Assembly: GCA_944380855.1 (NCBI GenBank) | Contig: CALWIW010000004.1 | Coordinates: 32,236 to 96,235 of the forward strand | DNA: 64,000 nucleotides | From: an uncultured Clostridia bacterium | Lineage (GTDB): Bacteria; Bacillota; Clostridia; Oscillospirales; Acutalibacteraceae | Direction of reading: 5' to 3' | Part shown: positions 5,162 to 51,614 of the stretch, piece by piece | Numbering within the stretch: the stretch's first letter is position 1 | Layout: each line of letters starts with the position of its first letter | Notes under the pieces: generated by a model | Seen by the model: only the letters and a program-made list of their open reading frames with translations | Database searches by the model: none | What the model was told of the DNA's origin: nothing | Made by a program: the position numbers and the translations under genes

Positions 5162-5180
5162 ATGTTTTACTAATACAAAT

Positions 5181-5407
5181 AGGTTGCATAGCAAATGTTG
5201 GGGGATTGGGATTCCAAAGGGACTACGTCCCTTTGGCAGGTGGTTTGGAGGACAGCGTCCTCCAAGGTCTTAAAATGCTGTAAAAAACGCAGGAGGGGAG
5301 CAAAAAACAGTTCGGTGAACTGTTTTTTGCTGGGGAACCCACGTCAGGGGTTCCCCGATAACCCTTTATTTTTCTTAATTCACTTTTTACCTCAACTATT
5401 GACAAAT
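5181..5407 (+). repeat. 227-bp multi-hairpin dispersed repeat, copy 1
   Basis: This is the forward-oriented copy of an element also present at 41129-41356 and 49660-49892. It holds four near-perfect hairpins: CCAAAGGGAC/GTCCCTTTGG (5214-5236), TTGGAGGAC/GTCCTCCAA (5245-5265), GCAAAAAACAGTTC and its complement (5300-5330), and GGGGAACCC/GGGTTCCCC (5332-5356). The ends are imperfect inverted repeats around CAA-N2-GTTGRGG. It carries no plausible transposase, so it is a MITE-like or structured-RNA repeat. Its orientation is defined here as plus. Confidence 0.85.
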
Positions 5408-5420
5408 AAACTATAAATAA

Positions 5421-27602: not shown

Positions 27603-27845
27603 GTCGAATTGAAAATACAGCAAACGGCAAAGACGGAGTTAAATAACTTGTTTTCCGCAAAGAGAGAGAACGACAGGTGGAAAGTTCTTCGGAAGAGGGT
27701 TATGTGCCGCTCCTGAGCTTTCGGTGATGAGCCGAACGTAGTTCTGCGTTAAAGATTTCAAGGGGTCGTTTTAATTTTAAAACGGCAATTTGGGTGGTAC
27801 CGCAGGTTTATCTCCTGTCCCATGTTGGGGCAGGAGTTTTTTTGT
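27603..27845 (+). ncRNA. T-box leader riboswitch of alaS
   Basis: The leader carries the conserved T-box antiterminator sequence GGGTGGTACCGC (27792-27803) and a terminator with arms CTCCTGTCCC (27812-27821) and GGGGCAGGAG (27827-27836) followed by eight T. Upstream, stem I features are visible, including the AGAGAGAGAACGA region and a 3' strand with two alanine codons in a row, GCC and GCT (27706-27711), one of which is the likely specifier. Uncharged tRNA-Ala should stabilise the antiterminator and allow alaS transcription. Confidence 0.92.
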
Positions 27846-27896: not shown

Positions 27897-30530
27897 ATGC
27901 AGTGGACTGGACTTAACGAACTGAGAGAAAAGTTTCTTTCTTTCTTTGAAAGCAAGGGTCATTTAAGATTACCAAGTTTTTCTCTTATACCAAAGGATGA
28001 CAACAGCCTTTTGCTTATCAACAGCGGAATGGCTCCTATGAAAAAATATTTTACAGGTGAGGTTACACCTCCGAGAAAGCGTGTTACCACCTGTCAGAAA
28101 TGTATCAGAACTCCTGATATTGAGCGTGTTGGTATTACTGCCCGTCACGGAACTTATTTTGAGATGCTTGGAAACTTTTCTTTCGGAGATTACTTCAAGC
28201 ATGAAGCAACAGCCTGGGCATGGGAATTTTTCACCAAGGTTTTGGAAATGCCTGAGGAGCTTCTCTATGTTTCTATTTATGAAGATGACGACGAGGCTTT
28301 TGAAATCTGGACAAAGGAAGTTGGCGTTGACCCAAGCCATATTGTAAGAATGGGCAAAGAGGACAACTTCTGGGAGCACGGTTCAGGTCCATGCGGTCCT
28401 TGCTCTGAAATTTATTTCGACAGAGGTCCTAAAAAGGGCTGCGGCAGTCCCGACTGCCACGTTGGCTGTGAATGTGACAGATTTGTTGAGGTTTGGAACT
28501 TGGTATTTACTCAGTTTAACAACGACGGACACAACAACTACACACCTCTTGACCACCCGAATATTGATACAGGAATGGGACTTGAGCGTCTTGCCTGTGT
28601 AATGCAGGGTGTTGACAACCTGTTCTTGGTTGATACAGTTCAAAATATTATGAAGCACATCTCTGAGCTTACAGGGGTTAAGTACGGAGAGAGCGAAAAG
28701 AGCGATATTTCACTGCGTGTTATTACAGACCATATCAGAAGCACAACCTTTATGATTGGCGACGGAGTCATGCCGTCAAACGAGGGTAAGGGCTATGTTT
28801 TACGCAGACTTTTGAGAAGAGCCGCACGTCACGGCAGACTCCTGGGAGTGAAAGAGCCTTTCCTTTACAAGGTTTGCGAAACTGTAATTAAAGAAAACGA
28901 AAGTGCTTATCCTGAGCTTAGAGAAAAGCAGGAGTTTATCACAAAGCTTATAAAGGTTGAGGAAGAAAACTTTGCAAACACTGTTGAGCAGGGTCTTAAT
29001 ATGCTTCAAAGCATTATTGACCGAGGCGACGTTGAAACTCTTTCAGGTGAGGACAGCTTTAAACTTCACGATACTTTCGGTTTCCCGATTGACCTTACAA
29101 GAGAAATTCTTGAGGAAAAGGGAATTTCAGTTGATATCGACCGTTTCTATGAGCTTTTGGCAGAACAGAAAAAGCGTTCCCGTGATATGAGAAAAAATGC
29201 AGGTGCGGACGCTTGGATAAGCGAAAGCACAGACCTTTCAGATATTGCAAAGACAGAGTTTATCGGATACTGTGAAAATGAAACTCAGGCTGAAATTCTT
29301 GCTATTGTAAAAGACGGCGAGCGTGTAGAGGCTGTTGGCGAGGGCGAAAGTGCAATATTTGTTCTCAGCAAAACTCCTTTCTACGCAGAAAGCGGTGGAC
29401 AGATAGGCGACAGCGGTATAATCTGCGGAGAAGGTTTTGAAATTGAAATTTCCGATACAACTAAAGACCACGGCGGAATTTTCCTCCATGCAGGCGTTGT
29501 AAAGGCAGGCAGCGTGGCTGTGGGAATGTCAGCTGACGCTAAAATTGACGCTGTACGCCGTATGGACATAATGAGAAATCACACAGCCGCTCATCTGCTT
29601 CAGGCTGCTTTAAGAGAGGTTTTGGGAAATCATGTTGAGCAGGCAGGTCAGCTTGTAACAGACCACTCCGTAAGATTTGACTTTACACATTTTTCAGCTC
29701 CTACTGCTGCGGAGCTTATGGCTGTTGAAGCAAGAGTAAATGAAATTATTCTTTCAGGTGTTCCTGTAAATGTTATGGAAATGCCTATTGATGAGGCTAA
29801 GAAAATGGGAGCTATGGCACTTTTCGGTGAAAAATACGGCGATATTGTAAGAGTTGTAAAAGCAGGCGATTTTTCAACAGAGCTTTGCGGCGGTACCCAT
29901 GTTGATAACACAGCTAAAATCGGTTTGTTTAAAATCAGACAGGAAGGTTCTGTTGCCGCAGGTGTAAGACGTATTGAGGCTGTAACAGGTCACGGCGTTT
30001 TGAAAATGGTAGAAGATACAACAAATATGATTGCACAGGCGGCTATTGCTCTTAAAATTTCAAATCCTAAGGATGTTGTTGCAGGTGCGGAAAGAATTGC
30101 CGACGAGATGAAAGAGCAGGCAAGAAAAATTCAGGAACTCCGCGATAAGATAGCTGCAACTCAGATTAATTCTCTTATGGCAAAGAGCCAGCTTGAAAAA
30201 GGTGTAAGAATTATTTGTGCCGCTATGACTGACGTAACAGGCGACATGATTAAGGAAATGTGCGGAAAAGTTCTCGACATTGCACCGAAGGCGGTAATTG
30301 TTCTTGCAGGTATCAGCGACGGAAAGGTAACATTCGGTTGTGCCTGCGGAAAGGAAGCCAGAGATAAGGGAGCAAATGCAGGAAAGATTGTAAAGGCAGT
30401 TGCCCAGATTGCAGGAGGCAACGGCGGCGGAAAGCCTGATATTGCTATGGCAGGTGCTAAAGACCCGACAAAGGTTGACGAGGCTATTATGCAGGCAAAG
30501 TCAATTATTCTTGATATGATTAAAGAATAA
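27897..30530 (+). CDS. alaS: Alanine--tRNA ligase
   Basis: The 877-residue enzyme charges tRNA-Ala. The class II catalytic domain begins LREKFLSFFESKGHLRLPSF and includes motif 2 (TARHGTYFEMLGNFSFGDYF in its extended form) and motif 3 (GMGLERL). The editing domain has the zinc-binding HTAAHLL and CGGTHV motifs, and a C-terminal C-Ala region with glycine-rich GGNGGGKPDIAMAG is present. Length and order match bacterial AlaRS. The T-box leader upstream provides amino-acid-dependent control, and a strong terminator follows. Confidence 0.98.
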   Translation: MQWTGLNELREKFLSFFESKGHLRLPSFSLIPKDDNSLLLINSGMAPMKKYFTGEVTPPRKRVTTCQKCIRTPDIERVGITARHGTYFEMLGNFSFGDYFKHEATAWAWEFFTKVLEMPEELLYVSIYEDDDEAFEIWTKEVGVDPSHIVRMGKEDNFWEHGSGPCGPCSEIYFDRGPKKGCGSPDCHVGCECDRFVEVWNLVFTQFNNDGHNNYTPLDHPNIDTGMGLERLACVMQGVDNLFLVDTVQNIMKHISELTGVKYGESEKSDISLRVITDHIRSTTFMIGDGVMPSNEGKGYVLRRLLRRAARHGRLLGVKEPFLYKVCETVIKENESAYPELREKQEFITKLIKVEEENFANTVEQGLNMLQSIIDRGDVETLSGEDSFKLHDTFGFPIDLTREILEEKGISVDIDRFYELLAEQKKRSRDMRKNAGADAWISESTDLSDIAKTEFIGYCENETQAEILAIVKDGERVEAVGEGESAIFVLSKTPFYAESGGQIGDSGIICGEGFEIEISDTTKDHGGIFLHAGVVKAGSVAVGMSADAKIDAVRRMDIMRNHTAAHLLQAALREVLGNHVEQAGQLVTDHSVRFDFTHFSAPTAAELMAVEARVNEIILSGVPVNVMEMPIDEAKKMGAMALFGEKYGDIVRVVKAGDFSTELCGGTHVDNTAKIGLFKIRQEGSVAAGVRRIEAVTGHGVLKMVEDTTNMIAQAAIALKISNPKDVVAGAERIADEMKEQARKIQELRDKIAATQINSLMAKSQLEKGVRIICAAMTDVTGDMIKEMCGKVLDIAPKAVIVLAGISDGKVTFGCACGKEARDKGANAGKIVKAVAQIAGGNGGGKPDIAMAGAKDPTKVDEAIMQAKSIILDMIKE

Positions 30531-40187: not shown

Positions 40188-41018
40188 ATGAAAGTTAGAA
40201 TTATTTCTGCAGCTGTGGGCGTAGCTCTTCTTATGGGGGTGCTGGTACTTGCAGAGTTTTACCCGATTTTTGTGGGGATAATATTGGGTTTAGTAACCGC
40301 AATAATGACAAGCGAATATCTCAGTGCTAAAAAGCTTCACCGGAATTTTATGATTTCGATACCCTGCATATTGCTGTCGCTGACTGCCCCTATACTTGTT
40401 TTCTACATGAACCTGATGTTCCTGCTGTACGGATTTGCTTTGGTTCTGATGTTCTCGCTGATATTTTATCATGATTATCTCAGTTATTTTGATACGGCGT
40501 TTGCCATTACCGGAACCTTGGTTATCACTTTCGGAATGACAAGCATAAGTGCCTTGTGCGTCAAGGGCGAGTATACATCTTTCTATGTTATTGCCTGTCT
40601 TTGCGTTCCGTGGCTTTCCGACGCCGGTGCGTATTTTACGGGAACTTTCTTGGGAAAGCATAAATTATGCCCGAAAATAAGTCCTAAAAAAACTGTGGAG
40701 GGTGCCGTAGGCGGTGTGATTTTCGGAATACTCAGCGGTGTTGTTGCAGGTATGGTTTTCTCCTCGTTTATATACGGAGCAGACAAGGTTTATATAAACT
40801 ATGCGGGACTTGCTTTAATAGGTGTTGTGAATTCCGTTATCTCTATAATGGGCGACCTTTGTTTCTCAATTATCAAGAGAAGCTGTTCAATTAAAGATTA
40901 CGGTACAATAATGCCGGGACACGGGGGTCTGCTCGACAGATTTGACAGCGTTATTTTTTCAGCTCCCTTTGTGTATATTTTTTGCAGATACTTTGTGCTT
41001 ATCGCTCCGGCTGTATAA
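40188..41018 (+). CDS. cdsA: Phosphatidate cytidylyltransferase
   Basis: CdsA makes CDP-diacylglycerol, the branch point for phospholipids. The 276-residue protein has about eight membrane segments and the conserved C-terminal region: WLSDAGAYFTGTFLGKHKL, ISPKKTVEGAVGG and the signature KRSCSIKDYGTIMPGHGG followed by LLDRFDS. It follows uppS after 23 bases with GGGGAAG upstream. A hairpin terminator and repeat copy 2 come after it, separating it from dxr. Confidence 0.96.
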   Translation: MKVRIISAAVGVALLMGVLVLAEFYPIFVGIILGLVTAIMTSEYLSAKKLHRNFMISIPCILLSLTAPILVFYMNLMFLLYGFALVLMFSLIFYHDYLSYFDTAFAITGTLVITFGMTSISALCVKGEYTSFYVIACLCVPWLSDAGAYFTGTFLGKHKLCPKISPKKTVEGAVGGVIFGILSGVVAGMVFSSFIYGADKVYINYAGLALIGVVNSVISIMGDLCFSIIKRSCSIKDYGTIMPGHGGLLDRFDSVIFSAPFVYIFCRYFVLIAPAV

Positions 41019-41083
41019 TGATATTTACATTTTATTCGTTCATCATATAACATATAAAGGATATTTCTGCTTAGGCAGTGAAA

Positions 41084-41124
41084 ATAGCGGTTTTCGATTT
41101 TCGATGACCGCTATGATGTTTTTA
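41084..41124 (+). terminator. Terminator-like hairpin after cdsA
   Basis: Arms ATAGCGGT (41084-41091) and ACCGCTAT (41107-41114) with additional inner TCGA pairing, followed by GATGTTTTT. It suggests that at least part of the pyrH-cdsA transcript ends here. Confidence 0.6.
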
Positions 41125-41128
41125 GGAT

Positions 41129-41356
41129 ATTTGTCAATGTTTGGGGCAAAAAGTGAATTTAGAAAAAATAAAAAGTTAGCAGGGAACACTGACGTGGGTT
41201 TACGGCAAAAACAGTTCACCGGACTGTTTTGCTCACTCCTGCATTTTTTGCAGCATTTTAAGACCTTGGAGGACGCTGTCCTCCAAACCACCAGCCAAAG
41301 GGACAGTGGTCCCTTTGGAATTTCAAAATTTTCCCCCAACATTTGCCATACAACCT
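41129..41356 (-). repeat. 227-bp multi-hairpin dispersed repeat, copy 2
   Basis: This is the reverse-oriented copy of the element at 5181-5407. The CCAAAGGGAC and TTGGAGGAC hairpins are fully kept, the AAAACAG hairpin is slightly imperfect, and the GGGGAACCC hairpin has decayed. It is inserted between cdsA and dxr, inside an otherwise conserved gene cluster. The first and last bases match the ends of the other copies. Confidence 0.85.
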
Positions 41357-41434
41357 GTTTTTATTAAGCAATAAACCGAACATTATAACACTCAGAAATG
41401 AATACTATTTTATATCCGAAAGACGGTGATTTTT

Positions 41435-45098: not shown

Positions 45099-45121
45099 TT
45101 TTGAGTGAAAAGGAATGTTTG

Positions 45122-48100
45122 ATGAATACTTTAGGAAATGTTTTTTCAGATTATTTGGAAGAACCTTTTGACCAGCGAATTGCCCGGGGAGAGATAACCG
45201 GGGTAAAAATAAATAAGTCCAAAAGGACTTTGAATTTGTTTGTTTCTTTTAAAGAATATATTGAAAGAAAGACTATTTTCAGCTCCGAGGAAAAAATAAA
45301 AAAATCGGGGCTGAACCTTATGGGTGCAAATATAACGCCCAAATTTGTAAATAACGAATTTAAGGCTGAATATTTTCCCGATATGGTAGAGGCTTTAAAA
45401 CGTCATATTCCCAGAATTAACGGAACCTTTTCAAACGCCGAGGCGGTATGCGACGATGAGAGAAAGGTTATTACCATTGAGTTAAAGCACGGGGGAAAGG
45501 CACTGCTTGATTCCTGTAATTTTGACAGGGAATTTTCAAACCTTGTGCAGACGGAGTTCGGAACTCATTTTAATATAGAGTACAAGGGCGTTCTTGAAAT
45601 GGACGCTGAAAACGAGCTTTATATTCAGGAACAGCAGCACGCTCAGGAAACAATAAAAAGAGAGGCGGAAACTAAAGCTGCTCAGTTCTATATCGAGGAA
45701 GAGGAAAACAGAAATAAGATTCACGAAAAGAAAGTAAAAGCAAAAGAGGCTGAAAACCCCGTTGTAGAGATAAGAGAGGGAGAGGATTTGGCTCCCGCAA
45801 TTTTACCGTCAACAATCAGACCACTTTACGGCAGAGTTATTAAGGGAAAAATTGTGCCCATTAAAACTTTGGCGGCAGATACCGGGAAAACGGTTGTGTG
45901 GGGAGATGTTTTCGGCTTTGAAAAGAAAACCACAAAATCAGGTGATAAAAATATTATCACAATAAATATAACCGACTATACCGGTTCTACAACCGTCAAG
46001 GTTTTCAACTCCGTAAAGGACTGTGCCGTTTTGGATTCCATAAGCAAGAGCGGAACTATTGTTGCCGCAGGAAGCATGGAGTACGACAGGTACGCCGGAG
46101 AAATAGTTTTAAATGCCGATTCAATAGGAACAGTCAGCAAAAAGGAAGTGGCGGACAACGCGGAAACAAAGCGTGTTGAACTTCACTTGCATACAAATAT
46201 GTCATCTATGGACGGTGTTTCTTCCGCCGAAGAGATTATAAAGAGAGCGGCGAAATGGGGACACAGGGCTGTGGCAATTACCGATCACGGTGTTGCTCAG
46301 GCTTTCCCCGAAGCTATGAACACTGTTGAAGCCTTAAACAAGGGCGGAAACGACATAAAGGTTATTTACGGAACGGAAGCCTATTTTATAGACGACCTTG
46401 TAAATTCCGTTGTGGGAAACAGAAACGAGCCTTTGAACGGCACGTTTATATGCTTTGATATTGAAACAACAGGACTTTCCGCCGCAAGGGATAAAATTAC
46501 GGAGATTGGTGCGGTAAAGGTAGTAAACGGTGAAATTGTTGATGAGTTCAACACCTTTGCAAATCCCGAAATGCCTATACCTGCAAAAATTACCGAGCTT
46601 ACGGGTATTACCGACGCAATGGTTGCAGACGCTCCATCTCAGGAAGAGGCAGTGAGAAGCTTCCTTGAATTCTGCGACGGAAATGTATTGGTTGCACACA
46701 ACGCCGGATTTGATACTTCATTTATCAGAGCCGCCTGCAGCAATATGGGTGAAACATTTGATTACACCTACATTGATACGGTTGCCATTGCCAGAGCGGT
46801 GTTAAAGGATATTAAAAACTGCAAGCTGGACACAGTGGCTAAATATCTGCGTTTGGGAGAGTTTAACCACCACAGAGCCTGCGACGACGCCATGATTTTG
46901 GCAAAAATCTTTGTTTCTCTTTGCAGCCGCCTTGAAGCGGATTATAATATTACCGATGTCTGCGATATAAATACAAAGATTAACGGCGGAGATTTTAAAA
47001 AGCTGAAGCCATATCATCAGATAATTCTCGTAAAGAATAAAGCGGGACTTAAAAATCTTTACAAGCTTATATCTATGGCACATCTTAAATATTTTTACAA
47101 AACACCGAGAATACCTAAGTCCGAGCTTATAAAGCACAGGGAGGGTCTTTTGATTGGCTCTGCCTGCGAAGCCGGCCAGCTTATGAGGGCGGTTATTGAG
47201 GGAAAATCCATAGGCGAGCAGAAAGAAATCGCTTCCTTTTACGATTTTCTTGAAATTCAGCCTACGGGCAACAATATGTTTATGGTTCGGGAGGGAATGG
47301 TAAATTCAGTTGAGGATTTGCAGAATTTCAACAAAGCCATAGTAAAGCTGGGTAAGGAGCTTAACAAGCCTGTTGTGGCTACCTGCGACGTTCATTTTCT
47401 TGACCCTCACGACAGTGAGTACAGAAAAATTTTGCAGTTCAGCAAGGGTTTTACCGATGCGGATAATCAGGCTCCCCTGTATTTCAGAACAACAGCGGAA
47501 ATGCTCAAGGAGTTTTCTTATTTGGGCGAGAAAAAAGCCTATGAGGTTGTTGTTGAAAACACCAACAAAATCGCAGATATGATAGAGCGTGTCCGTCCTA
47601 TTCCCGAGGGAAATTTCCCGCCCTTTATTGACGGTGCAGAGGAACAGCTTACGACAATTACGTGGCAAAGGGCAAAGGACAAATACGGAGACCCTCTGCC
47701 TGAAATAGTTAAGGCAAGACTTGACAAGGAGTTAAATTCAATTACCACATATGGTTTCTCTGTTCTGTATATGACAGCTCAGAAGCTTGTTGCTGACAGC
47801 GAGGCTCACGGATATTTGGTTGGTTCCCGAGGAAGCGTTGGTTCTTCCTTTGTTGCAACAATGTCCGGTATTTCCGAGGTTAATCCTCTTTGTCCTCACT
47901 ATGTCTGCCCCAAGTGCAAGCACAGTGAATTTATCACCGACGGCAGTGTTGGTTCCGGCTTTGACCTGCCGCCTAAGAACTGCCCTGAATGTGGTGAAGA
48001 AATGCACCGTGACGGACATGAAATCCCCTTTGAAACCTTTTTGGGTTTTAAAGGCGACAAGGTTCCTGATATTGACCTTAACTTCAGCGGAGAATATCAG

Positions 48101-49501
48101 TCCTTTTCTCACAGATACACGGAAGAGCTTTTCGGAAAGGACAACGTTTTCAAAGCTGGAACAATAGCCACTGTTGCGGATAAAACCGCCTTGGCATATG
48201 TGCGTAAGTACGAAGAAGAAAAGGGAATTACTTTCCACAGAGCCGAGCAGGCTCGCCTTGCAAAGGGTTGTACCGGTATAAAAAGAACCACCGGTCAGCA
48301 CCCGGGAGGCATGGTAGTAGTTCCTAAGGGTATGGAGGTTTACGACTTCTGTCCTGTACAGCACCCTGCCAACGATATGAAATCAGACAACATAACCACA
48401 CATTTCGACTTCCACTCAATCCACGATACAATCTGTAAGCTGGATGAGCTTGGACACGATGTGCCGACAATTTACCATTATTTGGAAGAGTTTACCGGAA
48501 TTTCCGTTATGGACGTATCTATGAGCGACCCACAGGTTATGTCTTTGTTTACATCAACGGAAGCTCTTGGTGTTACTCCCGAGGACATTGATTCACAAAC
48601 GGGAACCTTTTCTCTGCCGGAGGTTGGAACAAACTTTGTTAGAAATATGCTGATAGAATCCCAGCCGAAAACTTTTTCCGACCTTTTGCAGGTTTCCGGC
48701 CTTTCCCACGGAACCGACGTTTGGATTGGAAATGCCGCTGACCTTATACACAACGGAACCTGTACCATTTCCGAGGTTATCGGTACACGTGACTCTATTA
48801 TGACATATCTTATGCATAAGGGACTGGAGCCGGGAATGGCATTTAAAATAATGGAAATTGTCAGAAAAGGTAAAGCTACAAAGCTTCTTACAGAGGAGCA
48901 TTTAAACGCCATGAAGGAACATAATGTTCCCCAGTGGTATATTGATTCCTGTATGAAGATTAAATATATGTTCCCTAAGGCTCACGCTGCGGCATACATG
49001 ATAGCCACCCTGAGATTGGGCTGGTATAAGGTGCATAAGCCTGTTGAGTATTATGCGGCCTATTTTACCGTACGAAACGACGGTTTTGACGGTGCTACTG
49101 TTATTAAGGGCAGACAGGCAGTTCTCAATAAAATGCAGATGATAAAAAGCAAGGGAAATGAGGCTTCAATGAAAGAGCAGGCGGAGCTTCCAATGCTTCA
49201 GATAATAAACGAAATGCTTGCAAGAGGCATAGAGGTTTTGCCTATTGATATTTATAAGTCAAAGGCGAAAAAGTTTGTTATTGAGGACGGAAAAATAAGG
49301 CTTCCTTTCTGCGTTTTGGCAGGCGTCGGCATGGCGGCTGCGGAAAGCCTTGAAGAGTGCGGCGAAAAGGAAAAATACCTTTCCGTTGAAGAAATGCTGA
49401 GAATTACAAAGGTTTCAAAATCTGTTATTGAAACTTTAAGAGAGGTCGGAGCATTAAAGGACTTGCCTGAAAGCTCACAGATGTCATTGTTTGCAATTTA
49501 A
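45122..49501 (+). CDS. polC: DNA polymerase III PolC
   Basis: PolC is the replicative polymerase of low-GC Gram-positives. From the ATG at 45122 (AAGGA seven bases upstream; a TTG 21 bases earlier is rejected) it has 1459 residues: N-terminal domain, OB domain (about 250-330), a PHP domain beginning ELHLHTNMSSMDGVSS that is split by a DEDDh proofreading exonuclease (FICFDIETTGLS near residue 442), then the polymerase core with zinc cysteines (CPKC/CPEC), catalytic DIDLNFSGEYQ and the finger and tau-binding regions. It is the last gene of the cluster, followed by a terminator. Confidence 0.98.
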   Translation: MNTLGNVFSDYLEEPFDQRIARGEITGVKINKSKRTLNLFVSFKEYIERKTIFSSEEKIKKSGLNLMGANITPKFVNNEFKAEYFPDMVEALKRHIPRINGTFSNAEAVCDDERKVITIELKHGGKALLDSCNFDREFSNLVQTEFGTHFNIEYKGVLEMDAENELYIQEQQHAQETIKREAETKAAQFYIEEEENRNKIHEKKVKAKEAENPVVEIREGEDLAPAILPSTIRPLYGRVIKGKIVPIKTLAADTGKTVVWGDVFGFEKKTTKSGDKNIITINITDYTGSTTVKVFNSVKDCAVLDSISKSGTIVAAGSMEYDRYAGEIVLNADSIGTVSKKEVADNAETKRVELHLHTNMSSMDGVSSAEEIIKRAAKWGHRAVAITDHGVAQAFPEAMNTVEALNKGGNDIKVIYGTEAYFIDDLVNSVVGNRNEPLNGTFICFDIETTGLSAARDKITEIGAVKVVNGEIVDEFNTFANPEMPIPAKITELTGITDAMVADAPSQEEAVRSFLEFCDGNVLVAHNAGFDTSFIRAACSNMGETFDYTYIDTVAIARAVLKDIKNCKLDTVAKYLRLGEFNHHRACDDAMILAKIFVSLCSRLEADYNITDVCDINTKINGGDFKKLKPYHQIILVKNKAGLKNLYKLISMAHLKYFYKTPRIPKSELIKHREGLLIGSACEAGQLMRAVIEGKSIGEQKEIASFYDFLEIQPTGNNMFMVREGMVNSVEDLQNFNKAIVKLGKELNKPVVATCDVHFLDPHDSEYRKILQFSKGFTDADNQAPLYFRTTAEMLKEFSYLGEKKAYEVVVENTNKIADMIERVRPIPEGNFPPFIDGAEEQLTTITWQRAKDKYGDPLPEIVKARLDKELNSITTYGFSVLYMTAQKLVADSEAHGYLVGSRGSVGSSFVATMSGISEVNPLCPHYVCPKCKHSEFITDGSVGSGFDLPPKNCPECGEEMHRDGHEIPFETFLGFKGDKVPDIDLNFSGEYQSFSHRYTEELFGKDNVFKAGTIATVADKTALAYVRKYEEEKGITFHRAEQARLAKGCTGIKRTTGQHPGGMVVVPKGMEVYDFCPVQHPANDMKSDNITTHFDFHSIHDTICKLDELGHDVPTIYHYLEEFTGISVMDVSMSDPQVMSLFTSTEALGVTPEDIDSQTGTFSLPEVGTNFVRNMLIESQPKTFSDLLQVSGLSHGTDVWIGNAADLIHNGTCTISEVIGTRDSIMTYLMHKGLEPGMAFKIMEIVRKGKATKLLTEEHLNAMKEHNVPQWYIDSCMKIKYMFPKAHAAAYMIATLRLGWYKVHKPVEYYAAYFTVRNDGFDGATVIKGRQAVLNKMQMIKSKGNEASMKEQAELPMLQIINEMLARGIEVLPIDIYKSKAKKFVIEDGKIRLPFCVLAGVGMAAAESLEECGEKEKYLSVEEMLRITKVSKSVIETLREVGALKDLPESSQMSLFAI

Positions 49502-49646: not shown

Positions 49647-49659
49647 AAATTTAAAGCTC

Positions 49660-49892
49660 TTTGTCAATAGTTGGGGCATAAAGTAAATTTAGGAAAAATA
49701 AAAAGTTAGCGGGGCATACTGACGTGGGTTTTCCGGCAAAAAACAGTTCACCGGACTGTTTTTTTGCTCATCTTCTGCTTTTTTTACAGCATTTTAAGAC
49801 CTTGGAGGACGCTGTCCTCCAAACCACCTGCCAAAGGGACAGTGGTCCCTTTGTAATCCCAAAATTTTCTCCAAAACATTTGCCATACAACC
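49660..49892 (-). repeat. 227-bp multi-hairpin dispersed repeat, copy 3
   Basis: This is the second reverse-oriented copy. The TTGGAGGAC and CCAAAGGGAC hairpins are kept (the outermost pairs of the latter are lost), the CAAAAAACAG hairpin is longer through extra T, and the GGGGAACCC hairpin is decayed. It fills most of the gap between polC and the end of the convergent GH13 gene. Confidence 0.85.
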
Positions 49893-49919
49893 AAATTTAA
49901 CTTATATCAGGTTTCATTA

Positions 49920-51614
49920 TTAATCCATTGGGGCAAAGCGGAGAATTTTTTTACCGTCACGCACTATAACCTCATTGAACATTGAATAGGGCCTTACCCA
50001 AAGTGTGCCGTCAGCAAGGTTTTTGTATACTACCATTTCTTCTTCGGTTTCGCTGTGTTTGGCAATGCCCAAAACTTCGTATTCTCCGCCTTTAAAATGA
50101 CGGTATTTGCCGGGTTTAACAGGCTGAGGAACAGGAATCTCTTCAACCTCAACCTCTTTAACCTCTGCGGCTTTTTCTTCAACTGCCGGGTCTGTTGTTT
50201 CCTCAACTGCCAAAGCTTCCTGCTGTGGTTCAGCCTTTTGGCACTGATCCTCGGAAAGTCTGAAATCGGCACTGCCCTGAACTAAAATTCTTGCAGAATA
50301 TGGAGGAATAGAAATATTTGCCCAGCCGTTTGCTGAAAATGTTTCATATTCGTTTAGAACGTCTACAAGATTTGTATCGCCGTCAACTTTGAAATCCATA
50401 CTTTTAGCTTCATTGGCAAGATTAAGTGCGATATACACGGTTTGATCTTCATATTGTCTTTTAAATACAAGCTGTTCGTTTTTAATGTTTACATTTTCAA
50501 AGGCACCGTATTTTAATGCCTTAAGGCCCAGGCGTGCCTTTCCCAGACGTCCTAAGAAATTGCATAACTCAAGATTGGGATTAACAAGATTGTGGAAATC
50601 AAGACATGGACGGAGAGCCTCGTCGCTGGAATTTGTTCTCACACCCTCTATTCCGTATTCGCTTCCGTAATAAATTGACGGAACGCCGGGCATTGTATAC
50701 ATCAAAGCATAAACGTTTGCAAGGTGGTTTTTATCTCTGAGTGTGCTTGCGATTCTGTTTACATCGTGATTGTCAACGAAGTTATAGGTGTAAATGTTTC
50801 TGTATATTCCGCCGCCGCTGGCATTTCCGAACTGACGCTGAAGTGAATGGGCAATTTCAAAATAATTGTGGTCATTGTGGGAGGAATAGATTCCCTTATA
50901 ACATTCATAGTTTGTAACAGAGTCCAAAGCTTCAGGATTTGCATATCGGGAATAATCTCCGTGGATTATTTCGCCGTAAAGCCAAAAATCACTTTTCTTT
51001 GACTTGCACATTGCGCGAAGTTCCTTGAAGAAGTTGACGTCTATGCAGTCCGCAACGTCAAGGCGGAGACCGTCAATATCAAATTCATCTATCCAAAAGG
51101 AAACGGCACCCAATAAATGGTTTACAACGTCACGGTTGTGATGATTCAGCTTTACAAGGTCATAGTGGCCTGCCCAGCCCTCATACCAAAATGGGTCGCC
51201 GTAGGGGCTTGAGCCGCCGAAATTGAGATTTTGAAACCAACTGCAATAGGGAGAAGCACTGCCTTTTTCCTGAACATCCTTAAACGCCCAAAATTCTCTG
51301 CCTACATGGTTGAACACACCGTCAAGGATTACTTTGATTCCGTTGCTGTGGAGTGTGTCGCATATTCTTTTAAAAGACTGGTTGTCGCCCAAACGCTTAT
51401 CTATTTTATAATAATCACGTGTATCATAGCCGTGCTTTGTGCTTTCAAAAACAGGGTTGAATACTATGGCGTTAACCTTCAGCTTTTTATAATGGTCTAT
51501 CCATTCGTAAATTTTATCAAGTCGGTACTCTTGTTTATTGTCGTTCATAATGGGAGCACCGCAGAACCCCAACGGGTAAATATTATAAATTATGCTTTCG
51601 TTGATAAAACTCAT
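49920..51614 (-). CDS. GH13 alpha-amylase-family enzyme fused to a DUF1653 domain
   Basis: The 564-residue protein has no signal peptide, so it works in the cytoplasm. The GH13 barrel shows region I DGVFNH, nucleophile Asp186 (GLRLDVADC), acid/base Glu215 (LYGEII) and Asp284 (FVDNHD), most like neopullulanase/cyclomaltodextrinase-type enzymes that hydrolyse malto-oligosaccharides. A beta C-domain (about 370-445) is followed by an acidic Glu/Val/Pro linker and a C-terminal DUF1653 domain (about 501-563, GKYRHFKGGEYEVLGIAKHS). DUF1653 usually occurs alone; its function is unknown. GGAGG lies nine bases before the ATG. The gene is monocistronic and divergent from ppa. Confidence 0.9.
   Translation of the reverse strand: MSFINESIIYNIYPLGFCGAPIMNDNKQEYRLDKIYEWIDHYKKLKVNAIVFNPVFESTKHGYDTRDYYKIDKRLGDNQSFKRICDTLHSNGIKVILDGVFNHVGREFWAFKDVQEKGSASPYCSWFQNLNFGGSSPYGDPFWYEGWAGHYDLVKLNHHNRDVVNHLLGAVSFWIDEFDIDGLRLDVADCIDVNFFKELRAMCKSKKSDFWLYGEIIHGDYSRYANPEALDSVTNYECYKGIYSSHNDHNYFEIAHSLQRQFGNASGGGIYRNIYTYNFVDNHDVNRIASTLRDKNHLANVYALMYTMPGVPSIYYGSEYGIEGVRTNSSDEALRPCLDFHNLVNPNLELCNFLGRLGKARLGLKALKYGAFENVNIKNEQLVFKRQYEDQTVYIALNLANEAKSMDFKVDGDTNLVDVLNEYETFSANGWANISIPPYSARILVQGSADFRLSEDQCQKAEPQQEALAVEETTDPAVEEKAAEVKEVEVEEIPVPQPVKPGKYRHFKGGEYEVLGIAKHSETEEEMVVYKNLADGTLWVRPYSMFNEVIVRDGKKILRFAPMD

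Follow-up and report, generated by a model that had tools for sequence, protein, structure and literature searches.

A hairpin-rich repeat of 230 to 238 bp occurs three times between the genes of the 64,000-nucleotide stretch analysed here (the window). Two readings were left open in the preliminary description: an outside transposase may have moved it as a MITE, or it may be a structured RNA or mRNA stabiliser present in several copies. We found that the repeat is an ISL3-type MITE, a known kind of element, and we think it likely that a double hairpin of REP-like, intercistronic type, older than the MITE and active at the RNA level, was captured by it. The source genome is that of a gut-type bacterium, a congener of Anaeromassilibacillus sp. 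An172 (G001), the nearest relative among the genomes searched; the genus is placed in the Acutalibacteraceae, Clostridia. The assembly is a 1.89 Mb draft in 63 contigs and is 86.2% complete.

An ISL3-type MITE with 8-bp target duplications

The strict ends of the three window copies are defined by 8-bp target duplications. The features are as follows, with the parts of the element given for copy 1.

5182..5411, plus strand: MITE copy 1, 230 bp, between a 534-aa ORF without Pfam match and an SNF-family transporter ORF, which are convergent
5174..5181: left target duplication of copy 1, TACAAATA, matching the right one at 7 of 8 positions
5412..5419: right target duplication of copy 1, TATAAATA
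5182..5203, plus strand: left end of copy 1, ISL3-like inverted repeat
5390..5411, minus strand: right end of copy 1, ISL3-like inverted repeat
5214..5236, plus strand: hairpin 1, CCAAAGGGAC/GTCCCTTTGG, first half of the module, with covariation
5245..5265, plus strand: hairpin 2, TTGGAGGAC/GTCCTCCAA, second half of the module, with covariation
5300..5330, plus strand: hairpin 3, 14-bp stem with A6/T6 flanks
5332..5356, plus strand: hairpin 4, GGGGAACCC/GGGTTCCCC, intact in copy 1 alone
41125..41355, minus strand: MITE copy 2, 231 bp, flanked by a CTP_transf_1-family ORF and a DXP reductoisomerase ORF, both on the plus strand
41356..41363: target duplication of copy 2 at the element's left side, TAAAAACA, 8/8
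41117..41124: target duplication of copy 2 at the element's right side, TAAAAACA, 8/8
49655..49892, minus strand: MITE copy 3, 238 bp, flanked by an amylase/DUF1653 ORF and a DNA polymerase III alpha-type ORF
49893..49900: target duplication of copy 3 at the element's left side, TTAAATTT, 8/8
49647..49654: target duplication of copy 3 at the element's right side, TTAAATTT, 8/8

The preliminary description had located the same copies in the same orientations, but its ends were 0–5 bp off. All three copies indeed lie between evident genes; only a mechanical 141-aa TTG ORF (40942-41367) overlaps copy 2. Copy 3 sits between the stop codon of the ORF 49920-51614 (minus strand) and the terminator-like palindrome behind that ORF, while the DNA polymerase III alpha-type ORF (45101-49501, plus strand) converges on it from the opposite side. 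No ORF of 100 aa was found inside copies 1 and 3.

Aligned with their flanks, the three copies show a mean column identity of 86%. Hairpins 1 and 2 are kept in all of them, the one exception being the outermost C of hairpin 1, which is an A in copy 3. Hairpin 3, previously called mostly kept, is present with small changes, and hairpin 4 forms a perfect 9-bp stem in copy 1 only (by eye), confirming its decay in the other two. The imperfect inverted ends are real as well, with 16 of 22 consensus positions agreeing between them. Judged by eye from its A6/T6 flanks, hairpin 3 is probably a bidirectional intrinsic terminator; a terminator scan of copy 3 listed none, the A/T flanks of this hairpin lengthening its stem past the scan's rule. 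Upon RNA folding, copy 3 gave a z of -2.38, with 4 of 200 shuffles folding as well or better, which is modest when taken alone. A known RNA family was rejected, since no Rfam family came at or near the gathering score: the window gave at that score a T-box only, located elsewhere and not at the copies, and a 351-bp stretch searched at a relaxed threshold gave three weak matches far under it. The T-box leader (27621-27825, 103.2 bits) stands upstream of the 877-aa ORF 27897-30530.

For the target-duplication test the element ends were taken as GGTTGTATRGCAAATG... and ...CAACTATTGACAAAGARCC, an alignment of 40 copies showing where the likeness stops. Both ends and enough flank are available at 40 of 82 places of the module (hairpins 1 and 2). 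The flanking 8-mers of these 40 copies match at 8/8 positions in 10 cases, at 7/8 in 10, at 6/8 in 6 and at fewer in 14, giving a mean of 5.78/8. Shuffled partners average 3.22, and none of 2000 shuffles exceeded 4.03. Position by position, the flanks agree in 24–30 of 40 copies inside the 8 bp, compared to 5–11 of 40 just outside on both sides. The 14 copies with at most 5/8 matches are compatible with decay, and insertion is not proved copy by copy.

An empty site was looked for with one copy, and it was found. An172 lacks copy 3 at the matching site, where a single TTAAATTC links the end of the gene to the palindrome that follows. The other flanking gene of copy 3 is located on a different An172 contig, hence gene order is not kept further out. 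We also considered that the repeat might be the remnant of a larger coding element. None was found at the copies examined, and the sharp ends, the 8-bp duplication and the lack of a transposase match in the genome led us to reject this idea.

Read backwards, the right end is GGCTCTTTGTCAATAGTTGGGG, which we take to be reminiscent of ISL3 ends. Of 150 genomes sampled from the bacterial family, 14 contain the ISL3 transposase domain PF01610; a search for it gave no match in the 86% complete source assembly or in An172. Because no ISL3 transposase was found in the source assembly, we can only infer movement in trans. In genome G127 of the same family, three of four fetched loci (L083, L091, L098) turned out to be a 1,381-bp element with both ends, GGCTCTATAATAAATGTTGGGG and CCCCAACTATTGACATAGAGCC, and a perfect 8-bp duplication is present at two of these three complete elements. 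The MITE agrees with the G127 ends at 17/22 positions on the left and 21/22 on the right, in the same asymmetric arrangement; as a control, 300 shuffled left 22-mers matched the G127 left end at 16/22 at most. The exact 19-base right end is additionally found beside ISL3 transposase fragments in two more genomes of the family (L075, L076). Between the ends of the 1,381-bp elements we saw no double hairpin. The 8-bp duplications, the empty site and the ends of the complete ISL3-family elements thus support the earlier proposal of a MITE with an outside transposase.

That three copies in the window would mean many in the genome proved right: BLAST gave 43 matches at E <= 0.001 in the source genome, 40 of them at E <= 3.1e-37 and the remaining three being short alignments to single palindromic hairpins, in a search that scored 40 of 107 first-look candidates only. 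Several copies are located at contig ends, so that two places may be the halves of one copy. Both neighbours could be assigned for 35 two-ended copies: convergent genes flank 14 of them, co-directional genes 21 (8 sense, 13 antisense) and divergent genes none; the assignment is ORF-based, with some overlap by mechanical ORFs. We read this bias against promoters as selection on insertions, with survival at gene ends, and not as function. By eye, several copies (e.g. L003, L010, L020) stand directly behind terminator-like palindromes with T runs.

The double hairpin with and without the MITE

The best matches of the element in An172 span hairpins 1 and 2 only. Of 48 distinct core sequences, 36 went into a covariance model (R1) of this module of about 74 nt; the other 12 were near-identical and were omitted. 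In the source genome R1 finds 76 places at 66 bits or more: 40 with both MITE ends, 20 with the left end only, 3 with the right end only and 13 with neither, the labels being fuzzy matches (one "left" copy, L182, is free-standing by eye). Beyond this genome, R1, whose E-values are rough, detects the module in 31 of 299 further genomes sampled from the family, four of them only at E 2.9e-4 to 1e-3, and in 22 of 245 sampled from the order; 17 of these 22 belong to other families, five of the 17 being found only at E 1e-4 to 1e-3. Among 347 genomes drawn from the phylum there are two with the module, both marginal (5.3e-4 and 6.6e-4). Module places are multi-copy, intergenic, palindromic and often paired or tandem, the traits by which REP/BIME repeats are recognised.

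These counts bear on the reading that the repeat is a purely selfish ISL3 MITE. The hairpins would then serve transposition alone, through contact with transposase or replication or as a guard against read-through, and modules that stand free would be MITEs in decay or unrelated look-alike palindromes. The ends, the 8-bp duplication and the empty site are all ISL3-MITE-like, 20 of the 76 strong copies have kept the left end without the right one, as decay predicts, and hairpin-rich MITEs are ordinary according to the excerpts of PMC10969869 at hand. However, a MITE end within 4 mismatches was found at 0 of 32 module places examined in other genomes, and in An172 one stands beside 1 of 12 module copies (by eye).

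A number of further arrangements were seen around the module and hairpin 3. In the source genome, L181 (C11:23474) and L186 (C2:103543) are free-standing modules in tandem in which single hairpins are repeated. An172 contains two inward-pointing module pairs around genes; they resemble a composite element, an idea we set aside as no common outer ends were seen by eye. At L142 (genome G236, about 1427–1567) a unit resembling hairpins 3 and 4 and the double-hairpin module stand side by side with inverted orientation, giving the impression that the inside of the MITE is a mosaic of two separate repeat modules. A hairpin resembling hairpin 3 (AACAGTCCGGTGGACTGTT) occurs in other genomes near tRNA/tmRNA genes. 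ARAGORN reported a tmRNA in L044, tRNA-Lys in L047 and tRNA-Pro in L048, and no tRNA/tmRNA in the remaining scanned loci of this kind (L043, L045, L046 and L050 also contain the hairpin). In L048 the hairpin is situated between two copies of the tRNA-Pro 3' end (1360 and 1608), like a very small integrated element.

We next come to the stems. In an alignment of 36 rows from the source genus, 97.7% of the cells pair and 7 of 19 pairs have changed on both sides, compared to 1–4 pairs in slid controls. The second alignment (A3), mainly of other genera, comprises 41 matches in 39 distinct rows, was fitted to R1 and contains a few overlapping minus-strand rows. Here 97.0% of the cells pair, and 16 of 19 pairs and 146 cells have changed on both sides, against 36 +/- 6.4 cells in shuffles and 4–34 in slid controls. 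Perfect stems of quite different sequence are plainly visible in the raw module stretches, too. From this data we conclude that the module stems covary beyond the controls; the signal is the same for an RNA and for a DNA palindrome. Further copies and stem covariation, whose absence would have spoken against the preliminary description, are hence both present. The alternative of a structured RNA or mRNA stabiliser is partly supported, by the covariation of hairpins 1 and 2 and their occurrence without MITE ends in many related genomes; a role as RNA is putative.

By BLAST of An172 loci against loci of the source genome, module-bearing stretches aligned on both sides at at least four places, four of which were inspected. 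At the first, An172 and the source genome have the module at one and the same position, with DNA_pol3_beta (dnaN) on one side and, on the other, an S4-domain ORF followed by a RecF/SMC-like ORF; in the source genome hairpin 2 contains one broken pair here and hairpin 1 is weakened. The second, again the same spot in both genomes, is between an AA_kinase and an Aldedh ORF, by our reading a proB-proA-like pair. Hairpin 2 differs from that of An172 by three compensated pairs at this site, its outermost pair is lost in the source genome, and the spacer of the source genome contains a second inserted module copy. At the third place, upstream of an antiporter-like ORF (named by eye), An172 possesses a free-standing module (L049) and the source genome a hybrid (L170, C10:35215), in which the left half of a MITE is joined to a free-standing right half. 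This suggests recombination of copies through the core. The fourth pair (L124/L063) resembles an old MITE in both genomes, and its left-side alignment is poor. Decay of a selfish MITE leaves both the cross-genus covariation and the intra-operon sites shared with An172 unexplained.

Conservation in inserted copies and competing readings

Within the MITE the hairpins are better conserved than the ends. Over 20 copies with good duplications, substitution averages 0.027 for hairpin 1, 0.005 for hairpin 2 and 0.009 for hairpin 3, versus 0.074–0.118 in the ends. Private mutations, counted in 32 copies, hit 12 of 1687 cells in hairpins 1 and 2, compared to 108 of 4854 in the remaining sequence without hairpin 3 (Fisher p 2e-5), a rate per site in the module of about one third of the rest. 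Hairpin 3 has 9 of 731, and its lower rate is not significant (p 0.095). As the copies counted here came from searches with the hairpin model, intact cores are favoured among them, a bias that a search by the right end removes only in part. Made without using the core, that search gave 40 places, 37 of them with the core adjoining and a 38th (C29:156) with a core cut by the contig end, showing that MITEs without the core are rare at best. An inside without function would be expected to decay at least as fast as ends on which movement depends, so that selection or conversion would have acted on the hairpins after insertion.

A constraint on mobility alone should not reduce private mutations in copies that are already inserted. 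Given this, together with the missing MITE ends elsewhere, we consider the purely selfish MITE unlikely, although it fares best among the rivals.

Somewhat further back, and unlikely as well, we place a role of the hairpins chiefly at the DNA level, where they would form cruciforms or bind proteins (as nucleoid or gyrase sites), or a likeness maintained by conversion between copies. Palindromes covary whether they are read as DNA or as RNA, and the hybrid L170, compared to L049 of An172, shows that copies can recombine through the core. Nevertheless, the three compensated pairs at one shared site and the stem changes across genera need both arms to change together, and conversion explains likeness within a genome but not pairing across genera. 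Moreover, the free-standing copies of An172 are mostly sense-oriented in co-directional spacers, in small numbers, which speaks against action as DNA.

Least probable of the three is a reading in which the double hairpin moves on its own, as a REP-type element served by a Y1/HUH (TnpA-REP-like) single-strand transposase, and the MITE is its passenger or a mosaic built on it: the module is dispersed, intergenic, palindromic and multi-copy, has multiplied in tandem at L181 and L186 and was inserted a second time in the proB-proA-like spacer, but Y1 presence does not follow the module (16 of 32 genomes with it, 137 of 268 without, scored by presence or absence and provided that the same 300 genomes were drawn) and a Y1 transposase gene was not found in the source assembly.

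We thus favour the capture of an older double hairpin by the MITE. An ISL3-family transposase supplied in trans would recognise the imperfect ends of about 22 bp, and the MITE would insert into AT-rich DNA between genes, duplicating 8 bp, as the duplications and the empty site show. It would at some point have taken up the module, capture in this direction being the one we propose, and hairpin 3 would serve as a bidirectional terminator. In transcripts that read through, the double hairpin may act between cistrons like a REP/BIME element, stabilising the RNA or serving as a processing block. The host would retain it by selection in inserted copies, as the covariation, the shared sites and the low private variation suggest, and the MITE would thereby have multiplied the module across the source genome. 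A fuller version is possible, and we advance it with more reserve. In it, this Clostridia order has a structured intercistronic RNA element not described before, formed by hairpins 1 and 2 and selected by the host in operons, which the ISL3 MITE captured and seeded downstream of dozens of genes.

Known relatives and biological meaning

The closest parallel is a MITE of Microcystis aeruginosa, which the excerpted text of PMC11448079 describes as a 187-bp, non-autonomous ISL3-type element with ends beginning GGCTCTTCG, 8-nt direct repeats and a stem-loop. The present element shares with it the small size, the lack of autonomy, ISL3-matching ends, 8-nt repeats and a stem-loop. It differs in that the Microcystis MITE has matching ISL3 elements in the same genome, and its core is not reported in those excerpts (PMC11448079) as an independent repeat of other genera, unlike the module here. 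With the ISL3-family insertion sequences (PF01610; G127) our MITE has in common the asymmetric ends and the 8-bp duplication; those of G127 in contrast are 1,381 bp long, contain a transposase and lack a visible double hairpin.

REP/BIME sequences have been proposed to be mRNA stabilisers and attenuators, according to the available part of PMC2267715. Like these and the REPINs, the module forms dispersed intergenic palindromes with paired hairpins and tandem units. Unlike REP and REPINs, it showed no association with Y1/TnpA-REP genes when scored by presence or absence, and it is found within a DDE-type MITE with target duplication. NEMIS/Correia and ERIC repeats use TA-type targets, which differs from the 8-bp duplication here. 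They are described, as far as the extract of PMC2229807 goes, as MITE-like repeats whose RNA stem-loops affect neighbouring mRNA. Our element is also a MITE-like repeat with stem-loops, with other ends and in other taxa. To our knowledge, SPRITE of Streptococcus pneumoniae has neither ISL3 ends nor a double-hairpin module. Hairpin 3 resembles the rho-independent-terminator-like sequence that the excerpts of PMC10969869 report for this small repeat.

In the literature on MITEs, ISL3, REP and Clostridia kin, a coverage that leaves most subscription journals outside, no description of the module was found, nor was one of a MITE together with Ruminococcaceae or Anaeromassilibacillus insertion sequences. 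As far as this literature goes, what is new is a MITE carrying an order-level double-hairpin repeat that is more conserved than the MITE's own ends.

The finding provides a dated test case for the spread of small structured repeats: the same double hairpin stands alone in various genera and, in a single genus, forms part of a DDE-type MITE; An172 offers an empty site together with shared intra-operon sites. An action of the module on mRNA would mean that the MITE has rewired dozens of genes at their 3' ends in one sweep; the effect, and the selection on it, could then be measured by comparing older with younger copies. Should the reading as a captured RNA be true, we would be looking at a transposon that spreads a part of post-transcriptional control through one genome.
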